A DNA stretch of 31,427 nucleotides from Firmicutes bacterium UBA4874. GTDB taxonomy: Bacteria > Bacillota > Clostridia > Caldicoprobacterales > DTU083. Below, piece by piece: positions 6,642 to 27,711 of this stretch (positions within the stretch are counted from its first letter, which is position 1; each line of letters opens with the position of its first letter). The stretch spans positions 1-31,427 of the forward strand of contig DHDO01000089.1 in the NCBI GenBank assembly GCA_002399435.1. The letters run 5' to 3'. A model generated the notes under the pieces. It was given only the letters and a program-made list of their open reading frames with translations, did no database searches and had not been told where the DNA came from. Position numbers and translations under genes: made by a program.

Positions 6642-6779
6642 ATAAAAAAACAGCACAGGGAATTCTCATATCTTACTATTCGACACAAAAAGCCATTTAG
6701 TTGTATTAAAATACATTAAATATCAAAATATATAGGATATATATGACAAAGAAAAACAATACATAATTAGGAATATATG
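6642..6779. other. AT-rich intergenic segment without recognisable genes
   Basis: Between the terminator and the subtilase promoter the DNA is markedly AT-rich, with several short ATAT and TAAAAT runs. No open frame with a ribosome binding site was seen. It is likely upstream promoter or regulator-binding DNA for the subtilase gene. Confidence 0.5.
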
Positions 6780-6808
6780 TTGACTTATAAATTTACTGGT
6801 GCTAATAT
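6780..6808 (+). promoter_or_regulatory. SigA-type promoter of the subtilase gene
   Basis: TTGACT (6780-6785) and TAATAT (6803-6808) are separated by 17 bp. The predicted leader to the ATG at 6950 is about 135 nt. It contains an extra AAGGAGG at 6892-6898 that serves no clear start codon. Confidence 0.7.
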
Positions 6809-6949
6809 ATATAACAATATATGTATAAATAAAACAATACCCCTATATCCGTAGAGATCTGCAATAAAGGATAATCGTCAAATATGAGGGGAAGGAGGAC
6901 ACAACAACTGGCGGATATCTTTTAAAATATGAATAGGAGTGATAGAAAG

Positions 6950-9900
6950 ATGGTTCTCAAAAGAAAGACACGAAAAGCAATTGCAGTCGGATTGTTTCTG
7001 CTGATGCTGATCAGTTCCTTCCCCGCTTTTGCGGCTGGCAGCGTCCGGTCTGCGCCACTTTCCACAGCGAAGGATCAGCTCCGTAAGGAATCTGCCAAAA
7101 AGATCGATCGGAACTGGGTGGGATCCCTTCCGGACGGGGAGTATGGAGAGGCGATTGTTTATTTGAAAAGTCAGACGAATGGCGAAGAGGCGGCCAGGGA
7201 AGCCAAAACCAAACTTTCTTCGTCGCTGACTCCAAATAAAGCGAAAACCGAAGTAAGAAAAGCAGTCATCAATGCACTCAAGGATAATGCAGAAGATACA
7301 CAGCGCAATCTGGTGAAGTATCTGACGCAGCAGAAAGGAAAGGGAAAAGTAAAGGAATATAAACCATACTATATTATCAATGTGGTTTATGTAAAGGCGG
7401 CGAAGGATGTCCTGAAAGATATTTCGTATTTCAGCGAAGTGGAAAAGATATACGAAAACAAAATTGTCAAGCTGGACAAGCCTGAGATCAACAAATCCAA
7501 AATTCAGGCAAATGCAGACGGAGTAGAGTGGAATATTGAAAGAATCAAAGCGGATGCGGCATGGAATCTTGGAGTGGATGGAACAGGAGTTGTAGTGGGG
7601 ACCATTGATTCCGGTGCGACATGGCAGCATCCGGCTCTTCAGGCAAAATGGAGAGGATATCTTCCGGAGGATCCCGACAATCCGAATCCGGATGGAAACT
7701 GGTTTGATGCGGTAAACGGGTCTGCTCTGCCCAACGACGATGCAAGCAATCCCCATGGAACCCATGTTATGGGAACCATCCTGGGTCAGGAGCCGGATGG
7801 GAGCAATAAGGTGGGAGCAGCGCCGGGAGCAAAGTGGATCGCCGCAAAGGCTTTCTCGCCAAACGGCGGTTATGACGACGATATTCTGGAAGCGGCAGAA
7901 TGGATGATGGCGCCAGGCGGGGATCCTGAAGCGGCACCGGATATCATAAACAATTCCTGGGGCGGAGGACCGGGCCTGGACGAATGGTTCCGCTCTGTTG
8001 TTGTCAACTGGAGAGCCGCCGGAATCCTGCCGGTCTTTTCAGCCGGGAATGGAGAACCGGGAAAACAGGCACCTCCGGCTTCCGTGAGTTCGCCGGCGAA
8101 CTATCCGGAAAGCTTTGCTATAGGAGCTTTGGACAACAACAATCAAAAAGCAGATTTTTCACAGAGAGGTCCGGGGCCTTATGACAATCTGAAACCGGAA
8201 GTTTCTGCTCCCGGAGTGAATATCCGTTCCTCCGTACCGGGAGGGTATGAGAGCGGATGGAATGGAACAAGCATGTCCGCACCGGCAGTTACGGGAACAG
8301 CGGCTTTGGTTTTGTCCGCGAACCATTCTCTTTCCGTGGAAGACGTGGAAGACCTTTTGAAGGAAACGGCAACTCCTCTGGAAGATGCCAACGATTCCGG
8401 GCATCCGAACAATGGATATGGTTACGGCCTGGTCGATGCATTTGAAGCGGTATCCAGGGTGGCAGGCGGGGCCGGAACAATAGAAGGAAAGGTACTGTCG
8501 GAAGGGCAGGATCTGGAGAATCCCGTTATCGTCCATGAGCAGAAGATATTTGATGCTTATCTGGGTTCTGATATTGCAATTCAGGCAGAAATCTCCGATG
8601 ATGTTTCCATTGTGGATACGGAGCTGCTGGTAAAGGAAACCGGGAAATCCTACTGGATCACATTACCGATGAAGAGAACAGCGGGAGATTATAAGTCGGG
8701 AACCTATACCGGTACGATTCCTGCTGATGTCGTCGGGCAGCCCGGGCTCACCTATAAGATCAAGGCAAGGGATTATGACGGCAATGTGGTGGCTACGGAA
8801 GGATATCAGGTAAAGGTGAAGTTCGGTGTCGTTCCGGATCAGTATGAGACAGATTTTGAGCCTTATCCGACAGGATGGGTAATGGACGGAGACTGGCAAT
8901 GGGGAGATCCTGCGGAGGGCGTGGGACCAGCCCCGCTGAGCGGAACGAAACTGATCGGCACCAACCTTGGCGGAGATTACGCCAACAGCGGAGACAGCGT
9001 TTTGCTGTCGGTACCACTGGATTTGAGAAATCGCGATTTGACCTTTGCACAATTTCGGGTGAGCCAGTGGTACGATATGGAAAATAATTATGACAAAGGA
9101 TTTGTCTATGTAACAAATGACTACGGTGAGACATGGACCCAGGCAGGGCCTGTCTATACCGGGGCCCAAACGGAATGGAAAGAAGTTCTGATTGATCTGA
9201 ATCCCTATATCGGATCAAAGGACCCCGTATTTCTGGCATTTCGGTTGACGACGGATGCCAGCGGTCAGAGAGCGGGATGGTATCTGGACAATGCAAAACT
9301 GATCGCGACGGACAACACACCGCCCGCCACACCGACAAACGTAAAAGGCAAATTTCGCCTGAACAGGGTAACCCTGAACTGGGATGCGGTATCGGATGCC
9401 GATGTCCAAAACTATCGGGTGTACCGCGCAAATGCGGAAGACGGCGAATATACCCTATTGGGAGAAACAGACGGTACCTCCTATGGAGATCGGGATGTTG
9501 TTCCGAAAACGCCTTATTATTACAAAGTCTCAGCCTGCGACTTTGCGGGGAACGAAAGCGAATTGTCATCTCCGTTGGCAGTGGAAGTGCCGGCCTTTGG
9601 AGACTATGTCTTCCTGACCGATTTTGAGGAGAATAACGGAAACTTCACGACAGGCGGCGAGAATAACACCTGGGAATGGGGTGTTCCCACATCCGGTCCG
9701 GAAGCCGGGTTTTATGGGGAAAAGGTCTGGGCCACCGGACTTTCCGAGAATTATGCCGGCAACAGCAGCTGCTGGCTGGAATCTCCGGAGATCCAGCTGC
9801 CCGCGGAAAATTGCTTTTTAGCCATTGGACATTGGTATGAGCTGGAGGATCGATACGATAAGGGATATATCCAGATCGCCCAAAAGGATGGAGAGAACTG

Positions 9901-12424
9901 GTCGGAATGGACAGATATTGCTCCTGGAGGCTACCTGACAGGAGACGGAAAGACATGGACAGACCTGGAAATTCCGTTGAATTCCTCTTATGCGGGGAAA
10001 ACGGTAAAAGTCCGGTTCCTGCTGACCAGTGACAGTTCCGTATCCAAAGCCGGCTGGTATCTCGATTATGTTCTGATTGATGCATCGGGAGAGGCGGGAA
10101 AAGCAGCCAAAACGGACAACCCCAGGGGAAAAATCAAGGCCGGGCTGAACGCGGATTTGATTTCTGCAAAAAAAGAAACCGAAGTGAAACCATTTCAGCT
10201 TGATCTGAAGGCAATGAAAAAGGCAAAAACAGGAAAGTATAAAACCATACCGGATCAGAAGGTATCCTCCCTTTCTTCCGCAACAGCGGGATTGCCTGTG
10301 GACGCTTCCGTGACGGTCCTGGAGACGGGAATAAGCGTAAAAACGAATCCGGCAGACGGAAGATTTCAGATGAAGCATGCCGCCAGCAAGGGAAATGAGA
10401 GCTGGACCCTGAAGGCGGAGGCCTATGGATTTTATCCGGCGGAAACAAAGGTTCATCTAAACGAAAACCAGACGGTCAAAACGAACTTTGTCCTGGAGGC
10501 AATTCCGAAAGGAACCATAACCGGAAGGGTTGTGGACCGATATTCCGGCGAACCCGCTTCAAATGCGGTCATACGGGTGCTGGAGGATCCCAGGGTGCCG
10601 GTTGCCATTGCCAATGAGAACGGAGAGTTTACCATCCCGGATATTTATGAAGGGGAATATACGCTCAAGGCGGTGGCGGATGGTTTTGAACCCGGAGAGA
10701 TTCATGTTGTAGCAGTGGGGAAGGAAACCGTCAAAACGGAAATACCCCTGAAGCGGTTTGTAGGCTATGAAGAAGAAATCGCGTATGATGACGGAACAGG
10801 GGAAAACGCACTGGTATTGAATGCAGCCGGAAGCGGGTTGGCCATACGGGTTACCCCGGTTCAATCCGGTCTGGTAAAGGGAGCCAATATTTTCTTCTGG
10901 GGAAATGACTGGCCGACTCCGGGCGGTACAAGGATCGGTATCACCCTGTACGATTCGGACGCAGACGGAAACCCCGTAAAGCTGGATGTCCAGCCGAAGA
11001 TTGTGGATGTTGTACGGGGCGAATGGAACAATATCGATTTGTCGGAGTTTGGATTTTCCACAGACCGGGATTTCTTCATTGCGACCTGTCAGACGGAAGT
11101 GGGGACTCTTTCTCCCGGGACAGGTATCGATGAATCCAGTCCATATGCGGAAAGATCCTATCTGTATTCCGGTGATACCTTTACTCCCATCAAGGAGGAG
11201 GATGTAGCCGGAGGCCTGATGATACGGGCAAGGATGGAGTATTCGGTCGGGACTCCTGAAATCAGCAATCTTGAAGATGTCAGCTATACCAATGAGGACT
11301 CCGTCGTGGTGGAAGGGACCGTAACGTCAGACAGCAAGGTAAACCTCTATGGCAACGGAGCCCGGATCGGAGAAGTGAATTCCGAAGGGAAGAAGTTCCG
11401 GAAGGAAATTGTTCTGCCGGAGGATAAAACATTGATCACGGTAACCGCCGAATTAAACGGCAAGGAAACAGAGCCCTCCCCCGGCAAGACCGTCATAAAG
11501 GATAAGGTCGCTCCGGAGCTTACGGTTACCAGTCCGAAAGATGGCCTGGTTACAAAGGAAAGAGTGGTTGATGTAACCGGAACGGTTTCGGATAACCATT
11601 TCGGAAGACTGGAAATAAATGACGATGCAGTTGAAGTTGTTAACGGAGCCTTTCATGCAGAAAAAATCATTCAGGAAGGCGAGAATCTGTTCCATATCCG
11701 GGCGTATGATCTGGCAGGAAATCAGACGGAATCCACGGTCCACGTCGTTGTAAAAAGAGATAAGCCGATGATAACCGATCTGGAACCCTCGCAAGACGTG
11801 TATCTGCCTGGAGGGGAGGAACTGACGGTAAGCTTTCACAGTGAGCCGGGCGGACAGGGGAGCTTTCGTGTTTTGATTCCCGGCAGTGCTTCCACGCAGG
11901 CAAATCGTTCGATTGCCATGGAAGAAGTGGAAGCCGGATACTATGTCGGGAAATGGACCGCACCGGATGCCCGCATCAGCGGTCTGGTCGTGGAAGCAGA
12001 GTTTACGGACGTGGCCGGAAATACCGTAACCGCTGAGGCAGCAGGAAAGATACAGGTTGGAGTGGACGAGAATGCGATACGGGATCTGGAACCTTCTAAG
12101 AATGTTACCCTGAAGGGAGGAGAGCAGCTTACCGTGAGCTTCCGCAGCGGGAAAGGCGGCTCCGCGTCCTTCCGGATTGTATTCCCGGGACTCAGCGCAT
12201 TGAAACCTGCAGCATCCAACATGAGAGAAGTTACTCCGGGGTATTATGAAGGAACATGGACAGCCCCGCAGAATACAAAAGCCAATGGGCTGCTGGTTGA
12301 AGTGACTTATACCGATGCGGATGGAAAGAAGACAACCGCCACAGCACCAGGCAGGATCCATGTGGTGGAATCCGGTAAGAAAAAGCCGAAGCCGCTCAAG
12401 CCAAAAAAGCCTGGTAAGCAATAA
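6950..12424 (+). CDS. Very large secreted subtilisin-like serine protease (S8 family, bacillopeptidase-F-like)
   Basis: From ATG 6950 (AGGAGTGA at 6935-6942; the ATG at 6929 lacks a site) the product has 1824 residues. Residues 1-29 form a signal peptide (basic MVLKRKTRK, hydrophobic core, then FPAFA). A propeptide follows to about residue 185. The S8 catalytic domain (about 195-500) has Asp220 (GTIDSGA), His269 (HGTHVMGT), oxyanion Asn334 (INNSWGG) and Ser441 (NGTSMSAPA), so it should be active. After it come two immune-inhibitor-A/MAM-like jelly-roll domains (about 630-790 and 885-1055) with a fibronectin III domain between. Two carboxypeptidase-regulatory-like beta domains (about 1113-1270), Ig-like domains, and two copies of a 102-residue repeat follow (from about 1609 and 1711). 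The Lys/Pro-rich end has no LPXTG or SLH anchor. The role is probably extracellular protein degradation. It is a single gene with its own promoter and terminator. Confidence 0.93.
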   Translation: MVLKRKTRKAIAVGLFLLMLISSFPAFAAGSVRSAPLSTAKDQLRKESAKKIDRNWVGSLPDGEYGEAIVYLKSQTNGEEAAREAKTKLSSSLTPNKAKTEVRKAVINALKDNAEDTQRNLVKYLTQQKGKGKVKEYKPYYIINVVYVKAAKDVLKDISYFSEVEKIYENKIVKLDKPEINKSKIQANADGVEWNIERIKADAAWNLGVDGTGVVVGTIDSGATWQHPALQAKWRGYLPEDPDNPNPDGNWFDAVNGSALPNDDASNPHGTHVMGTILGQEPDGSNKVGAAPGAKWIAAKAFSPNGGYDDDILEAAEWMMAPGGDPEAAPDIINNSWGGGPGLDEWFRSVVVNWRAAGILPVFSAGNGEPGKQAPPASVSSPANYPESFAIGALDNNNQKADFSQRGPGPYDNLKPEVSAPGVNIRSSVPGGYESGWNGTSMSAPAVTGTAALVLSANHSLSVEDVEDLLKETATPLEDANDSGHPNNGYGYGLVDAFEAVSRVAGGAGTIEGKVLSEGQDLENPVIVHEQKIFDAYLGSDIAIQAEISDDVSIVDTELLVKETGKSYWITLPMKRTAGDYKSGTYTGTIPADVVGQPGLTYKIKARDYDGNVVATEGYQVKVKFGVVPDQYETDFEPYPTGWVMDGDWQWGDPAEGVGPAPLSGTKLIGTNLGGDYANSGDSVLLSVPLDLRNRDLTFAQFRVSQWYDMENNYDKGFVYVTNDYGETWTQAGPVYTGAQTEWKEVLIDLNPYIGSKDPVFLAFRLTTDASGQRAGWYLDNAKLIATDNTPPATPTNVKGKFRLNRVTLNWDAVSDADVQNYRVYRANAEDGEYTLLGETDGTSYGDRDVVPKTPYYYKVSACDFAGNESELSSPLAVEVPAFGDYVFLTDFEENNGNFTTGGENNTWEWGVPTSGPEAGFYGEKVWATGLSENYAGNSSCWLESPEIQLPAENCFLAIGHWYELEDRYDKGYIQIAQKDGENWSEWTDIAPGGYLTGDGKTWTDLEIPLNSSYAGKTVKVRFLLTSDSSVSKAGWYLDYVLIDASGEAGKAAKTDNPRGKIKAGLNADLISAKKETEVKPFQLDLKAMKKAKTGKYKTIPDQKVSSLSSATAGLPVDASVTVLETGISVKTNPADGRFQMKHAASKGNESWTLKAEAYGFYPAETKVHLNENQTVKTNFVLEAIPKGTITGRVVDRYSGEPASNAVIRVLEDPRVPVAIANENGEFTIPDIYEGEYTLKAVADGFEPGEIHVVAVGKETVKTEIPLKRFVGYEEEIAYDDGTGENALVLNAAGSGLAIRVTPVQSGLVKGANIFFWGNDWPTPGGTRIGITLYDSDADGNPVKLDVQPKIVDVVRGEWNNIDLSEFGFSTDRDFFIATCQTEVGTLSPGTGIDESSPYAERSYLYSGDTFTPIKEEDVAGGLMIRARMEYSVGTPEISNLEDVSYTNEDSVVVEGTVTSDSKVNLYGNGARIGEVNSEGKKFRKEIVLPEDKTLITVTAELNGKETEPSPGKTVIKDKVAPELTVTSPKDGLVTKERVVDVTGTVSDNHFGRLEINDDAVEVVNGAFHAEKIIQEGENLFHIRAYDLAGNQTESTVHVVVKRDKPMITDLEPSQDVYLPGGEELTVSFHSEPGGQGSFRVLIPGSASTQANRSIAMEEVEAGYYVGKWTAPDARISGLVVEAEFTDVAGNTVTAEAAGKIQVGVDENAIRDLEPSKNVTLKGGEQLTVSFRSGKGGSASFRIVFPGLSALKPAASNMREVTPGYYEGTWTAPQNTKANGLLVEVTYTDADGKKTTATAPGRIHVVESGKKKPKPLKPKKPGKQ
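11776..12380 (+). repeat. Duplicated ~102-codon module in the subtilase C-terminus
   Basis: Two successive modules begin with DLEPSQDVYLPGGEELTVSF and DLEPSKNVTLKGGEQLTVSF. Each ends in a TWTAP segment followed by a valine-rich strand. They are clearly homologous, about 306 bp apart, and diverged, so this is an old domain duplication rather than a recent one. Confidence 0.8.
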
Positions 12425-20415: not shown

Positions 20416-20454
20416 AAAACAGCACCTTTCCGATGATGGAGAAGGTGCTGTTTT
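20416..20454. terminator. Bidirectional terminator between the sugar kinase and kamA
   Basis: AAAACAGCACCTT pairs perfectly with AAGGTGCTGTTTT (13 bp, 13-base loop). The flanking A and T runs allow it to end transcripts from both sides, as expected between convergent genes. Confidence 0.88.
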
Positions 20455-20497: not shown

Positions 20498-21643
20498 TTA
20501 TGGATGCTTTGATGGAGTGGTATTGGAAGCCGTTTGGGCTTTGGGTCTTTGGGGAATCGGATAGTGGTATTTTTCGCCTTTGTAGTTCTCAAGCAGGACC
20601 TCACGGTCATCCTTGCGGAGGACATAGTTATAATTAATGGGGATTTTTCCACCGCCGTGGGGGGCATCAATTACATATTTCGGTACGGCAAAGCCGGAGA
20701 TGTAGCCGGTAAGCTGATGCATGATGTCGATTCCGGTATCCACATCGGTCCGGAAGTGGGAGATGCCTCTGGACAGGTCGCACTGGTACAGATAATAGGG
20801 GCGTACCCGCATATGGACCAGTTTCAGCAGCAGATCTTTCATCACTTCCGCATTGTCATTGATTCCTCTCAGCAGCACGCTCTGGTTTCCAAGGGGGATG
20901 CCGGCGTCCACTATGGCAGTACATGCCCGCTCCGCATCCGGGGTGATTTCCTGGGGATGATTGAAATGCGTGTTGATCCAGACCGGCTGATACTTTTTCA
21001 ACATGACCAGGAGCTCTTCGGTGATCCGCATGGGCAGAACCACGGGAACCCGCGTGCCGATGCGGATAATATCCACATGGGGGATTGCCCGGAGTCCGGC
21101 AATAATGGACTCCAGCTTTTTTGTATTCATTGTCAGGGGATCCCCTCCGGAGATCAGGACATCCCGGATTTCCTCATGAGACCGGATGTAATCCAAAGCT
21201 ATTTCCAATTCGCTCTCTGTGATCGTTCCGTCTTCCTCCCCGACGACTCTGCGGCGGGTGCAATGACGGCAATACATGGAACAGACATAGGTTACTAGGA
21301 GCAGTACGCGGTCCGGATAGCGGTGAACAATATTGGGAACCGGGCTGCTTCCCACTTCGTTCAGGGGATCGTCCAGGTCATCACTGCAGTAAAGCGTTTC
21401 CTGAATCGACGGGACACTCTGCATTCGGATGGGATCCTTTTCATCCTCCGGATGAATCAGGGAAGCATAATAAGGGGTAATCGCCATTCGGAACTGTTTC
21501 AGACAGGTGGTGATATCCGTTTTTTCCTGTTCGGATAAGTCAAGTACTTCCGATAACATTTCGGTGTTTGTAATCCTGTGGGCAAGCTGCCATTTCCAAT
21601 TATTCCAGGATTGTACCGGAATGGAGTTCTTCCAACTGGTCAT
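20498..21643 (-). CDS. kamA: Lysine 2,3-aminomutase family radical SAM enzyme
   Basis: The enzyme class moves the alpha-amino group of lysine to the beta carbon, giving L-beta-lysine, using a 4Fe-4S cluster, S-adenosylmethionine and PLP. Seen here are Cys121, Cys125 and Cys128 (CSMYCRHC), the PLP lysine Lys333 in DAPHGGGKIP, and Asp289 (YQCDLS) and Asp326 (VIDAP). All sit at a constant offset of 4 from the Clostridium subterminale enzyme (Cys125/129/132, Asp293, Asp330, Lys337). The two aspartates hold the lysine side-chain amine in that enzyme, so lysine rather than glutamate is the likely substrate. The protein has no Cys after residue 288, so the C-terminal zinc site of the classical enzyme is missing. 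The ATG overlaps the stop of the ATP-grasp gene by 4 bp. Usual partners of the beta-lysine osmolyte pathway (an acetyltransferase) are absent. Confidence 0.88.
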   Translation of the reverse strand: MTSWKNSIPVQSWNNWKWQLAHRITNTEMLSEVLDLSEQEKTDITTCLKQFRMAITPYYASLIHPEDEKDPIRMQSVPSIQETLYCSDDLDDPLNEVGSSPVPNIVHRYPDRVLLLVTYVCSMYCRHCTRRRVVGEEDGTITESELEIALDYIRSHEEIRDVLISGGDPLTMNTKKLESIIAGLRAIPHVDIIRIGTRVPVVLPMRITEELLVMLKKYQPVWINTHFNHPQEITPDAERACTAIVDAGIPLGNQSVLLRGINDNAEVMKDLLLKLVHMRVRPYYLYQCDLSRGISHFRTDVDTGIDIMHQLTGYISGFAVPKYVIDAPHGGGKIPINYNYVLRKDDREVLLENYKGEKYHYPIPQRPKAQTASNTTPSKHP

Positions 21644-22692
21644 GCAATCTCACCCCGTCTCTCGTCTTTCTGCCTTTTCAGGGCAGCATCCAGGATTCCA
21701 TTGATGAGATCGGAATAGGAGACGCCGCAGAATTCAGCGAGCATTGGGTAGTCACTGTAACCGGGAGCCAGTCCGGGAAGGGGATTGACCTCAATGAAAT
21801 GGATCTTCCCGTCGGGCGACATCCGGAAATCCACCCGCGCAAGATCCATACAGCCAAGGACATCGTAGACTTTCCTTGCCATCCCCGTCATTTCTTTCTC
21901 CTGGTCTTTTGTCAGATCAGCAGGGCATTGGTATTCCAAATATTCCGTAAAGCTTTGTTTCAGTTTATAATTGTAAACATGATAGTTTCCCTGGGTGGGT
22001 TTCCGGTATCGGATCTCCATGGGTGGGAACAGCCTTGCGTCCCGGCCGTTTCCAAGGATGCCAACCGTAAATTCCCGTCCCTCGATGTACTCTTCAGCCA
22101 GCATATCCTGTTGGTAAAGATGGATGCTTCTGCCTGCCAGCTCCTGAAGTTCCCTTCTGTTCTTTACGATACTGATCTCCGAAATTCCCTTGCTGGATCC
22201 TTCTGCATTGGGTTTAAGGATGACCGGATAATGAAGGGAACCGGTGGCAAGCGGTGTTTTGGCGGATAAAACGATGCTTTTGGGTGTCCGAACCCTGTAG
22301 GAAGAAACGATTCGCTTTGTCAGCGCCTTATCCAGTGCAATGCACAACGTTGTTTCGTCCGATCCGGTAAACGGTATTCCAAAAAAATGAAGCATGGCCG
22401 GAACCTGCGCCTCACGGCCTCTTCCATGCAAGCCTTCAGCGATATTGAAAGCAATATCCATTTGCTCATGACGCAGTTTTTCCGGCAATGCTCCATCTGC
22501 CTCCAGCAATACCGTTCTGTGACCCCTTTCTTCCAAAGCGGATTGGATCGCATAAACCGTATCGATCCTGTCGTATTCCGCTTCAGCATCCGGGGTATCC
22601 TTCTTTAATCCCTTTTTCAGGTTGTATACAATACCCACTGTTAAGGTACGCTTGGGGAGGGGAACTTCGGAATCCATTTGTTCCATGTTCAA
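21640..22692 (-). CDS. ATP-grasp ligase resembling D-alanine-D-alanine ligase
   Basis: The 350-residue protein has an ATP-grasp fold. It contains KPNAEGSSKGI (nucleotide loop), EEYIEGREFTVGILG, RVDFR, and FIEVNPLPGL with the metal-binding Glu and Asn. Mid-region FNIAEGLHGRGREAQVPA and FTGSDETTLCIALDK are typical of Ddl-like ligases. The Ddl N-terminal motif around GGxSxEREVS, which holds the first D-alanine, is absent; the start reads VGIVYNLKKGLKKD. After PGL it has APGYSDYPMLAE instead of the Ddl TxxSLxP motif. It therefore probably joins a different amino acid pair, forming an amide from an acyl-phosphate. It is first in an operon and overlaps kamA by 4 bp, so beta-lysine is a candidate substrate (inference). 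Confidence 0.85.
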   Translation of the reverse strand: MNMEQMDSEVPLPKRTLTVGIVYNLKKGLKKDTPDAEAEYDRIDTVYAIQSALEERGHRTVLLEADGALPEKLRHEQMDIAFNIAEGLHGRGREAQVPAMLHFFGIPFTGSDETTLCIALDKALTKRIVSSYRVRTPKSIVLSAKTPLATGSLHYPVILKPNAEGSSKGISEISIVKNRRELQELAGRSIHLYQQDMLAEEYIEGREFTVGILGNGRDARLFPPMEIRYRKPTQGNYHVYNYKLKQSFTEYLEYQCPADLTKDQEKEMTGMARKVYDVLGCMDLARVDFRMSPDGKIHFIEVNPLPGLAPGYSDYPMLAEFCGVSYSDLINGILDAALKRQKDERRGEIA

Positions 22693-22735: not shown

Positions 22736-22763
22736 AGTATAGTCAAAAAAAAGAGAATGTCAA
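22736..22763 (-). promoter_or_regulatory. SigA-type promoter of the ATP-grasp/kamA operon
   Basis: On the minus strand a perfect TTGACA (22758-22763) and TATACT (22736-22741) are separated by 16 bp. It is back-to-back with the uppP promoter. Confidence 0.75.
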
Positions 22764-24352: not shown

Positions 24353-25081
24353 TTAGCATGGTCCGATATAAAAGGGACAGCACATTCTTGCCAGGCAAAG
24401 TCCGCAGCATATCTTGTTGATGGTGTCACCCGGCATGCCAAATCCCCGGCTCTGCTGCTGATAAACCCTGCCGCCATGCTCGATTTGATTCAGAAGTCTC
24501 CGGTATTCCCTGTTGTTTGGATCCATCCGGACAGCGGTTCGTGCATGATCAAGGGCTGTAATGCGATTGCCCATACCGGAATTTGCCAGTGCACTGTAAT
24601 AATACCATTCCGCAGTCCTGTCTGACATCCCTGCCAGTACATGTAATGCCTCCTCATAATAACCTGCGTTCAGATAACTGATGACCGGATCAAATGCAGA
24701 TTGTTGTCTGCGCTGCCTGTTCCTGTCATAGGATCCGCCTTCTCCAAACGGACCGAATCCGCCGAACGGGTCAAATCCCCCGAACGGATCAAATCCCCCA
24801 AAGGGATCAAACCCGCCATATGGATTCTCCTGGTTTCCGGAGGGACTGGATCCGTTGTTTCCATAGGAGCTCTGTCCTCCATAGCCGCTGTTGCCGGACT
24901 TTTTCATTTCCTTGATCTGTTCGTAGGCAGCATTGACCTCGCTCATCTTTTGGGCAGCTTCCTTGTCCCCCTGATTTAAATCCGGATGGTACTTTTTTGC
25001 CAGTTTGCGATAGGCTTTTGTAATTTCTTCATCCGAAGCATCTGGCGAAACACCAAGCACCTTGTAAGGATCGGATATCAT
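24353..25081 (-). CDS. J-domain co-chaperone with Gly/Phe repeats, TPR-like region and Cys-rich tail
   Basis: Residues 4-60 form a J domain with the HPD motif (His32-Pro33-Asp34) that stimulates Hsp70 ATP hydrolysis. Next come a Gly/Ser/Asn-rich linker and four copies of a GGFDPF-type hexapeptide, encoded by 18-bp DNA repeats at 24744-24815. Residues about 130-200 look like a TPR-type helical pair ([14 protein letters not shown] and [15 protein letters not shown]). The end holds six cysteines (225, 226, 229, 234, 235, 242) in a hydrophobic context. It lacks the DnaJ zinc domain, so it is a specialised J-protein. The ATG overlaps the stop of the DUF5685 gene by 4 bp, and an Hsp70 paralogue lies in the same operon, its obvious partner. 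Confidence 0.88.
24744..24815. repeat. 18-bp tandem repeat coding for the GGFDPF hexapeptides
   Basis: Four adjacent 18-bp units, the central two nearly identical (CCGAACGGGTCAAATCCC and CCGAACGGATCAAATCCC), lie inside the J-protein gene. Copy number could change without a frameshift. Confidence 0.85.
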
Positions 25082-25899
25082 GTTTTCAATCTCTCATTTC
25101 TCTTCTTGTTTTTGGATACCAGTCTTGTCCACACTCCGGAATAAAGGATATTTTCAATCAGATTTTGATCCCGGTCCATGGGAAGCTGTTTGTATCGTTC
25201 CGTACAGTCTGCCATCATCAGATTGAGAACGGAGGGAAAATCCTCTGAAGAATGCATCGTCATGGGATTATAGCGCTCTTTCCGGATATCGGACTCCAGA
25301 TCCAGACAGGCATCCATGATATAGATAAACCTGCCAAGAGATTTTCCAAACGCACGCAGTTTTTCAGAAAACTCATCCTGTTTCGGAACAAATACTTCTC
25401 CCATTATATCACCAAAACAATTTGCAGGGAGATCCGGATTGATTTCTCCGGAAGTTTCCATACTGGAAAGTTTCCCGAGGCTTTTTTGGATCACTGCGGA
25501 TTTATCAGGGTACCGGGCCACCGTTTTTTGAAATTCCTGCTCCAGCAGTCTGGACTCCAGCAAAGGCAATGCTTTCTTATCGTCCTTCCAGTCATCGAGA
25601 AGATTGTAATAGGATAAAACGATGTTCATATCGGCTGCATAGGCTGACACATCGTTTTGCCAATATTCATGCGGCTTCAGGGGATGCATCATACATCTTT
25701 CGGTTTTCACGGTGGTTTTCGGCTCATACAGGGAGGACAAGCAAAGAACCAGAAAGGTCATATCATAATTCAGAGTCATGCGGCTGATCAAACCATGCCG
25801 ATCTCCCAATACCTTGCACAGGCCGCAGTAACAACCGCGATAACGTTTTTTTTCCTCTGGAGTCAGCTTGTCAACATTGGCAACAATATAGCCGAACAC
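25078..25899 (-). CDS. DUF5685 family protein with isoprenoid-synthase-like aspartate motifs, function unknown
   Basis: The 273-residue soluble, all-helical-looking protein begins with a conserved GCYCGLCK motif (Cys23, Cys25, Cys28) and [12 protein letters not shown], which I associate with DUF5685. Two acidic motifs stand out: DDWKD (Asp102, 103, 106; a DDxxD pattern) and Asp196-x3-Asp200-x3-Asp204 in [18 protein letters not shown]. This second pattern has the i, i+4, i+8 spacing of the second metal motif of class I isoprenoid synthases, and resembles the second acidic motif of squalene/phytoene synthases. That fold assignment is an inference. The GTG start has AGGTGA ahead. The gene lies 51 bp after the Hsp70 gene and overlaps the J-protein gene by 4 bp. 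Confidence 0.8.
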
Positions 25900-25950
25900 G
25901 TCATCACCTACTCATTATTTTTCTATATTGTTCCCATCTTGGCTCAGGAA

Positions 25951-27711
<1,761 letters not shown>

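Follow-up and report, generated by a model that had tools for sequence, protein, structure and literature searches.

A lysine 2,3-aminomutase-type KamA coupled to a non-canonical Ddl-like ATP-grasp ligase: a predicted module for beta-lysine conjugation

Results and Discussion

We analyzed a stretch of 31,427 nucleotides of contig DHDO01000089.1 from Firmicutes bacterium UBA4874 (hereafter the window), which carries at positions 20498-22692 a kamA gene and a gene for a Ddl-like ATP-grasp ligase. The two probably form a self-contained module in which KamA produces beta-lysine and the ligase couples it to a second small molecule, itself probably an amino acid. In the proposed scheme KamA, a radical SAM enzyme with pyridoxal phosphate (PLP), would move the alpha-amino group of L-lysine to C3 to yield beta-lysine. 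The ligase, of the Ddl fold, would activate a carboxylate as acyl phosphate and couple this to an amine; beta-lysine being one of the two partners, the product would be a beta-lysine dipeptide or amide. The coupling of KamA and ligase is near certain, and a beta-amino acid conjugation chemistry is likely. The genes, their key residues, the fold, the adjacency and the natural fusions were observed; from these we infer lysine and beta-lysine as substrates and a dipeptide as product. If the scheme is true, it predicts a class of beta-lysine peptides across Bacteria and Archaea.

The KamA of the window is of the lysine 2,3-aminomutase type

The kamA gene (20498..21643, minus strand) encodes a short KamA-family radical SAM aminomutase of 381 amino acids with matches to TIGR03820, PF12544 and PF04055. 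Residues 11-364 were aligned to PDB 2a5h, the C. subterminale enzyme (E-value 7e-138), with the numbering shifted by a constant -4 as far as position 337. The cluster cysteines C121, C125 and C128 correspond to C125, C129 and C132 of 2a5h and form a CxxxCxxC motif; R130, D289, D326 and the PLP lysine K333 correspond to R134, D293, D330 and K337, respectively (2a5h numbering is used below). The D293/D330 pair of lysine 2,3-aminomutase, which we take to bind the lysine side chain, is kept. The first-pass annotation of this DNA had listed both lysine-selecting aspartates, the PLP lysine and the iron-sulfur cysteines at a constant offset, and the alignment bears this out.

Among the family models, the lysine 2,3-aminomutase equivalog TIGR03820 scored best, at 522.5 bits against a cut-off of 525.4. 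The glutamate and arginine mutase models fell 178 and 170 bits under their own cut-offs, and the EpmB model TIGR03821 gave 258.6 bits, its cut-off being 369.3. As a control, nine glutamate-type KamA homologues from related genomes carried Lys/Asn at the D293/D330 positions, presumably the glutamate-mutase pattern, and D/D was found in the lysine-type homologues and in those 13 class-level pairs whose gene is complete. The paired KamAs at class level measured 370-399 amino acids vs. 398-442 for unpaired lysine-type proteins, and they formed a branch of their own in the KamA tree (support 100/99). The KamA matches of two genomes, G076 and G110, were listed with in-frame stops.

The ligase has the Ddl fold and has lost the Ddl substrate motifs

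The first gene of the pair (21640..22692, minus strand) encodes 350 amino acids when read from TTG at 22692; ATG at 22686 is the other start candidate. The protein matches PF07478 and shows the Ddl ATP-grasp fold. Of 42 families 25 were listed, and it stayed under the curated cut-off of each (best 192.4 vs. 243 bits, NF002378); the canonical Ddl model TIGR01205 gave 168.9 bits against a cut-off of 245.65. Two canonical Ddls are encoded elsewhere in the same genome. Aligned to them, the ligase has neither the N-terminal motif GG(K/N)S..E.E(I/V)SLQS, nor the EAKY/EKY tyrosine, nor the S-M/S-R pair after PGFT. We take the N-terminal motif to be the D-Ala1 site (Glu15 region) and the loop tyrosine to be Tyr216. 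The earlier statement that the N-terminal D-alanine motif and the motif after PGL are lost therefore holds against the genome's own two Ddls. That the ligase forms D-Ala-D-Ala is very improbable, given the low family scores, the missing substrate motifs and the presence of two canonical enzymes in the same genome, and 'D-Ala-D-Ala ligase' names on proteins adjoining KamA may be wrong.

The gene pair is conserved across families

Of 61 genomes in a search of relatives, 14 matched the ligase at E <= 1e-30, and kamA adjoined the ligase gene in nine of the 14 (window included). At class level 27 of 245 genomes had a match at E <= 1e-40. All 13 ligase matches above 350 bits (window included) lay beside kamA on the same strand, and none of the 14 matches below 330 bits had an adjacent kamA. 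The ligase gene came first in all of 14 pairs, with gaps of -59 to +72 base pairs (bp) and with flanks mostly unlike between families. At L083, where kamA lies 72 bp downstream, the ligase is 99.7% identical to P0003, a database protein of Caldicoprobacter algeriensis. Adjacency across many families thus answers in the affirmative whether the pair is conserved in related genomes.

In the phylum, 46 of 398 genomes had a ligase profile match at E <= 1e-80. For 26 of 75 clustered ligase open reading frames (ORFs), a kamA gene lay on the same strand at a distance of no more than 300 bp; the ligase came first in 22 of these and KamA in 4, and all 26 fell inside one 48-row ligase clade (support 95/92). 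From the 49 places of this search G307, G459, G287 and G450:C23 were left out; G572, G439 and G635 were covered with flanks of 1.5 kilobases (kb), which held no KamA. For L175 and L194 the clustering yielded no ligase ORF, and L129 and L130 (G090 and G141), where there is no KamA, were omitted.

Fusions and tree positions suggest repeated coupling

Fusions of kamA and the ligase gene, which the first-pass annotation had proposed to look for, were found in both orders. At least 58 natural ligase-KamA fusions were present among 353 retrieved proteins, 18 ligase-first and 40 KamA-first; these lower bounds come from the best 120 matches of each of three protein searches, among them one with the joined pair and one with a long fusion as query. 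The named sources were Eubacteriales, Syntrophobacteraceae, Desulfoferrobacter, Magnetoovum and two archaea (one of them Thermoplasmatota), several being metagenome bins. The three cysteines, R134, D330 and K337 were kept in all 58, and position 293 was Asp in 48 and Gln in 10 (P0266, P0268, P0269, P0270, P0272, P0277, P0278, P0280, P0281 and P0284, all with D330). The Gln293 proteins are possibly aminomutases of another amino acid. Another protein, P0180, is a KamA-AblB fusion (TIGR03827, 228.6 bits over a cut-off of 205.1) whose layout parallels the ligase fusions, with the acetyltransferase in the ligase's place.

In the KamA tree, which was drawn with a midpoint root and omits L093, L153 and L196 (cut or with unknown residues), 23 ligase-linked KamAs stood in three places. 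Fourteen grouped with the class pairs (98/92), four sat on a second lysine-type branch (96/83, with a long-branch warning since two long branches are joined there), and five stood next to the glutamate mutases on a third (100/99). We read the fusions in both orders together with the three tree places as pointing to repeated selection for coupling both activities.

Two types of pairs could be told apart. Type A combines a KamA with a full glycine loop and a ligase with S-D after PGL or AGL, and type B a KamA with a shortened glycine loop and a ligase with S-L. The association held in 18 of 18 type A and 6 of 6 type B pairs with a readable KamA loop; type B ligases form one clade, so the association may reflect one event and is not proof of a shared specificity. 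Type B pairs may act on an amino acid other than lysine.

Few loci hint at peptides of diamino or beta-amino acids

In genome G110 (locus L090) a gene for an S51-family peptidase lies 122 bp upstream of the ligase-kamA pair, and P0128 unites S51 peptidase, ligase and KamA in one protein, the only S51 fusion among the 120 matches listed. The two S51 parts are 45% alike. S51 peptidases act on aspartyl dipeptides or cyanophycin; the L090 protein scored far under the cut-offs for cyanophycinase and PepE. Of 245 class genomes, just one had a homologue of the S51 gene from L090 at E <= 1e-20, namely G110 itself, so S51 is not a general partner. On plasmid pTHIMO01 of Thioflavicoccus mobilis (L237, 2557-8038) a homologous ligase, 30% identical, has a convergent D/D-type KamA beside it, and the ligase gene is preceded by an annotated diaminobutyrate transaminase gene, SbnA (over cut-off) and an SbnB-like gene (under cut-off), the latter two standing for 2,3-diaminopropionate synthesis. 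This locus looks like a small diamino-acid peptide gene cluster. Two rhizobial plasmids (L240:4971-7430 and L239:3586-6194) carry, in both orders, a KamA with Cys at D330 and a shortened loop beside a different ATP-grasp family; the one member searched against PDB has L-amino acid ligases among its relatives, not as top match.

These S51, Thioflavicoccus and rhizobial cases, few as they are, point to peptides of diamino or beta-amino acids. In a broader picture, Bacteria and Archaea would use KamA and the ligase, as a portable unit or fused, to make a widespread class of net-neutral dipeptides of beta-lysine and an acidic amino acid (other beta-amino acids in type B and on the Gln293 branches), which a dedicated S51-family dipeptidase would reclaim. 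P0128 and L090 are the two cases behind the reclaiming step, and we consider the picture as a whole improbable.

Locus organization and neighboring genes

The stop codon of the ligase gene and the start codon of kamA share ATGA (21640..21643, minus strand, from sequence reading), which is the 4 bp overlap that the first-pass annotation had reported. The promoter that it had placed ahead of the pair was also found: a sigma-70-like TTGACA-16-TATACT site (22736..22763, minus strand) with 11 of 12 consensus matches, a likeness that is no proof of function. The site ends ∼43 bp 5' of the ligase start; the window contains 6 promoter-like sites vs. 3.5 (standard deviation 2.0) in shuffles. Because the flanking genes are convergent (PfkB-type kinase) and divergent (UppP), the pair by itself is the simplest transcription unit. 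In the gap separating kamA from the convergent pfkB-like gene, a perfect inverted repeat with 13 bp arms, AAAACAGCACCTT and AAGGTGCTGTTTT (20416..20454), was read by eye and is a possible bidirectional terminator; its 13-base loop is above the limit of the terminator scan, which did not report it. A ProV/OpuBC-type osmolyte transporter follows beyond PfkB, 1.5-4.3 kb from the pair.

Elsewhere, the pairs had neighbors of diverse kinds: GNAT genes downstream in L164 and L172, DJ-1/PfpI in L179, NUDIX in L087, IF3 in L088 and YheC/D ATP-grasps in L164, in addition to the S51 gene of L090. The YheC/D-like ATP-grasps of L164 (genome G305, 6778-9499) lie directly upstream of the pair and are three consecutive paralogues by clustering, two of which were scanned. 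L083, L084 and L085 have three upstream genes in common.

Other genes of the window encode an 1831-residue protein that combines a choice-of-anchor J domain with a protease region of the subtilisin-like (mycosin-type) kind (6929-12424), a radical SAM protein related to TIGR03279 (4346-5797; 401 bits vs. a cut-off of 574.7), and a DUF5685 protein flanked on one side by a DnaK of 576 residues and on the other by a DnaJ-like protein whose repeat is rich in Gly and Phe (24353-27681).

Alternative roles of the pair

The acetyltransferase AblB (TIGR03827) was over cut-off in one of 26 pair genomes (G305) and in 3 of 14 controls; none was found over cut-off in the window genome, in agreement with the earlier statement that the acetyltransferase of the acetyl-beta-lysine pathway is missing. 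KamD (PF09043, lysine 5,6-aminomutase) was likewise not detected in the window genome and gave one weak, partial match among the 26 (again in G305). The low counts of both speak against acetyl-beta-lysine synthesis and lysine fermentation. A mutual exclusion of AblB and the pair was considered and dropped, as 0 of 13 pair genomes vs. 11 of 49 other KamA-bearing class genomes was not significant (Fisher p 0.10).

A special case of the conjugation module, which we hold to be rather doubtful, is a role in making a compatible solute: the product would be a net-neutral dipeptide of beta-lysine (e.g., with glutamate or aspartate) in place of N-epsilon-acetyl-beta-lysine. The abl osmolyte operon likewise works in two steps (PMC1224877, in part), AblB is not over cut-off in 25 of 26 pair genomes, and the KamA-AblB fusion P0180 is the counterpart of the ligase fusions. 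The transporter of the window fits as well; however, among 14 pair loci and within the stretches fetched, an OpuBC-type gene is common only to the window and its congener G001. Nor was there any Rfam match in the window or any riboswitch over the gathering score in 13 further pair loci. A riboswitch link to salt stress was also rejected over 21 further loci, where only tRNA, RNase P, L21 leader and FMN matches appeared. By analogy and from the window transporter, an osmolyte role is possible.

Alternatively, the ligase might act in wall synthesis as a specialized enzyme of VanA/VanC-like type and build beta-lysine or some other residue into the peptides of peptidoglycan. Its closest PDB sequences are indeed VanA-type chains, and UppP adjoins it in the window; yet the D-Ala1 motif of Ddl and Van enzymes is gone, UppP is common only to the window and G001 (within the stretches fetched), and no wall-related neighbor recurred among the annotated flanking genes, part of the flanks being annotated. 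Moreover, archaeal fusions exist, and archaea lack murein. A peptidoglycan role was proposed for a related type 3 ligase of lichen Nostoc (PMC5987646, in part), but disruption of MXAN_4097, which has two tandem Ddl-like domains and is probably of the same family as judged from this tandem architecture rather than from sequence comparison, caused no obvious defect in growth, shape or S-motility (PMC9108774, in part). On balance, a wall function appears improbable. Less probable still is a KamA serving lysine catabolism or nitrogen metabolism next to an unrelated peptide ligase that the operon holds in place for convenience: KamA-family proteins abound in the phylum, with a match at E <= 1e-60 in 262 of 398 genomes, but fusions and adjacency in both orders, and a KamD over cut-off in just one of 26 pair genomes, argue against this reading.

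Several observations count against the beta-lysine conjugation module itself. The KamA falls 2.9 bits short of the lysine 2,3-aminomutase equivalog cut-off. Since EAEYD and NIAEG are found in ligases without kamA as well, these two motifs of its partner do not mark specificity for beta-lysine. In type B pairs the KamA loop is shortened and position 293 is Glu in four of seven, so lysine need not be the substrate of all pairs. No adjacent kamA accompanies 22 of the 48 rows of the ligase clade; KamA occurs elsewhere in 19 of 20 searched genomes of these non-adjacent members (not in G240), where it could be catabolic. The presence of a KamA-family match (E <= 1e-60, glutamate types included) in 42 of 46 ligase genomes vs. 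220 of 352 others (Fisher p 5e-5) speaks for the module, with the limit that the comparison ignores the relatedness of genomes. The KamD search had no positive control (0 of 14 controls gave a match), and no recurrent third gene across the pair loci, only single cases, names the product. Finally, a literature search for aminomutase, kamA or beta-lysine with ATP-grasp or D-Ala ligase yielded, among the matches listed (supplements being outside its scope), no activity for either protein. Of the original interpretation, the lysine-type KamA, the non-Ddl ligase and the missing AblB stand; the binding of beta-lysine by the ligase, its partner, and an osmolyte, wall or signal role stay at the level of suggestion.

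Comparison with known systems

Few fates of beta-lysine are known: it is acetylated to an osmolyte, used to modify EF-P, fermented, or found in some antibiotics. In the EF-P case EpmA attaches beta-lysine through an ATP-dependent amide bond. The ligase family of the window was probably classified by Iyer et al. in 2009, a study that is cited in PMC4431377. In the lichen Nostoc a second operon with a type 3, MXAN_4097-like ligase has been described, and the abbreviation list of that paper (PMC5987646, 2018, in part) includes LAM and SET. The neighborhood of ligase and LAM was probably noticed there, so the link may be partly in print; among the literature matches listed, this paper alone may touch the KamA-ligase pair. 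Tandem Ddl-like proteins of Myxococcota are homologous to the window ligase. MXAN_4097 is such a tandem protein, whereas the window has a single-domain ligase and one KamA as a stand-alone two-gene unit. In L102 (2685-6531, domains scanned) and L188 (by clustering), three ligase-family genes form a cluster that has a SET-domain gene in its midst and is followed by a GNAT gene, with no KamA adjacent.

With canonical Ddl and Van ligases the window ligase shares the fold and the ATP-grasp core; it differs from them by its lost substrate motifs and by scores under the family cut-offs. The proposed beta-lysylation of EF-P by EpmB and EpmA (PMC2821294, in part) resembles our scheme in that beta-lysine from a KamA-family enzyme is attached by a second, ATP-dependent enzyme, but here the EpmB cut-off is not reached and the partner is no lysyl-tRNA-synthetase-like protein. 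The ablA-ablB operon, an established pathway to the osmolyte N-epsilon-acetyl-beta-lysine (PMC1224877), is similar in its two steps, and riboswitches for Na+ and c-di-AMP can control its ablA (PMC9337991, in part). In both systems a KamA predicted to make beta-lysine is followed by a modifying enzyme, and both types of partners are also found fused to KamA; the second enzyme is a GNAT acetyltransferase in the abl operon and an ATP-grasp ligase in the pair described here.
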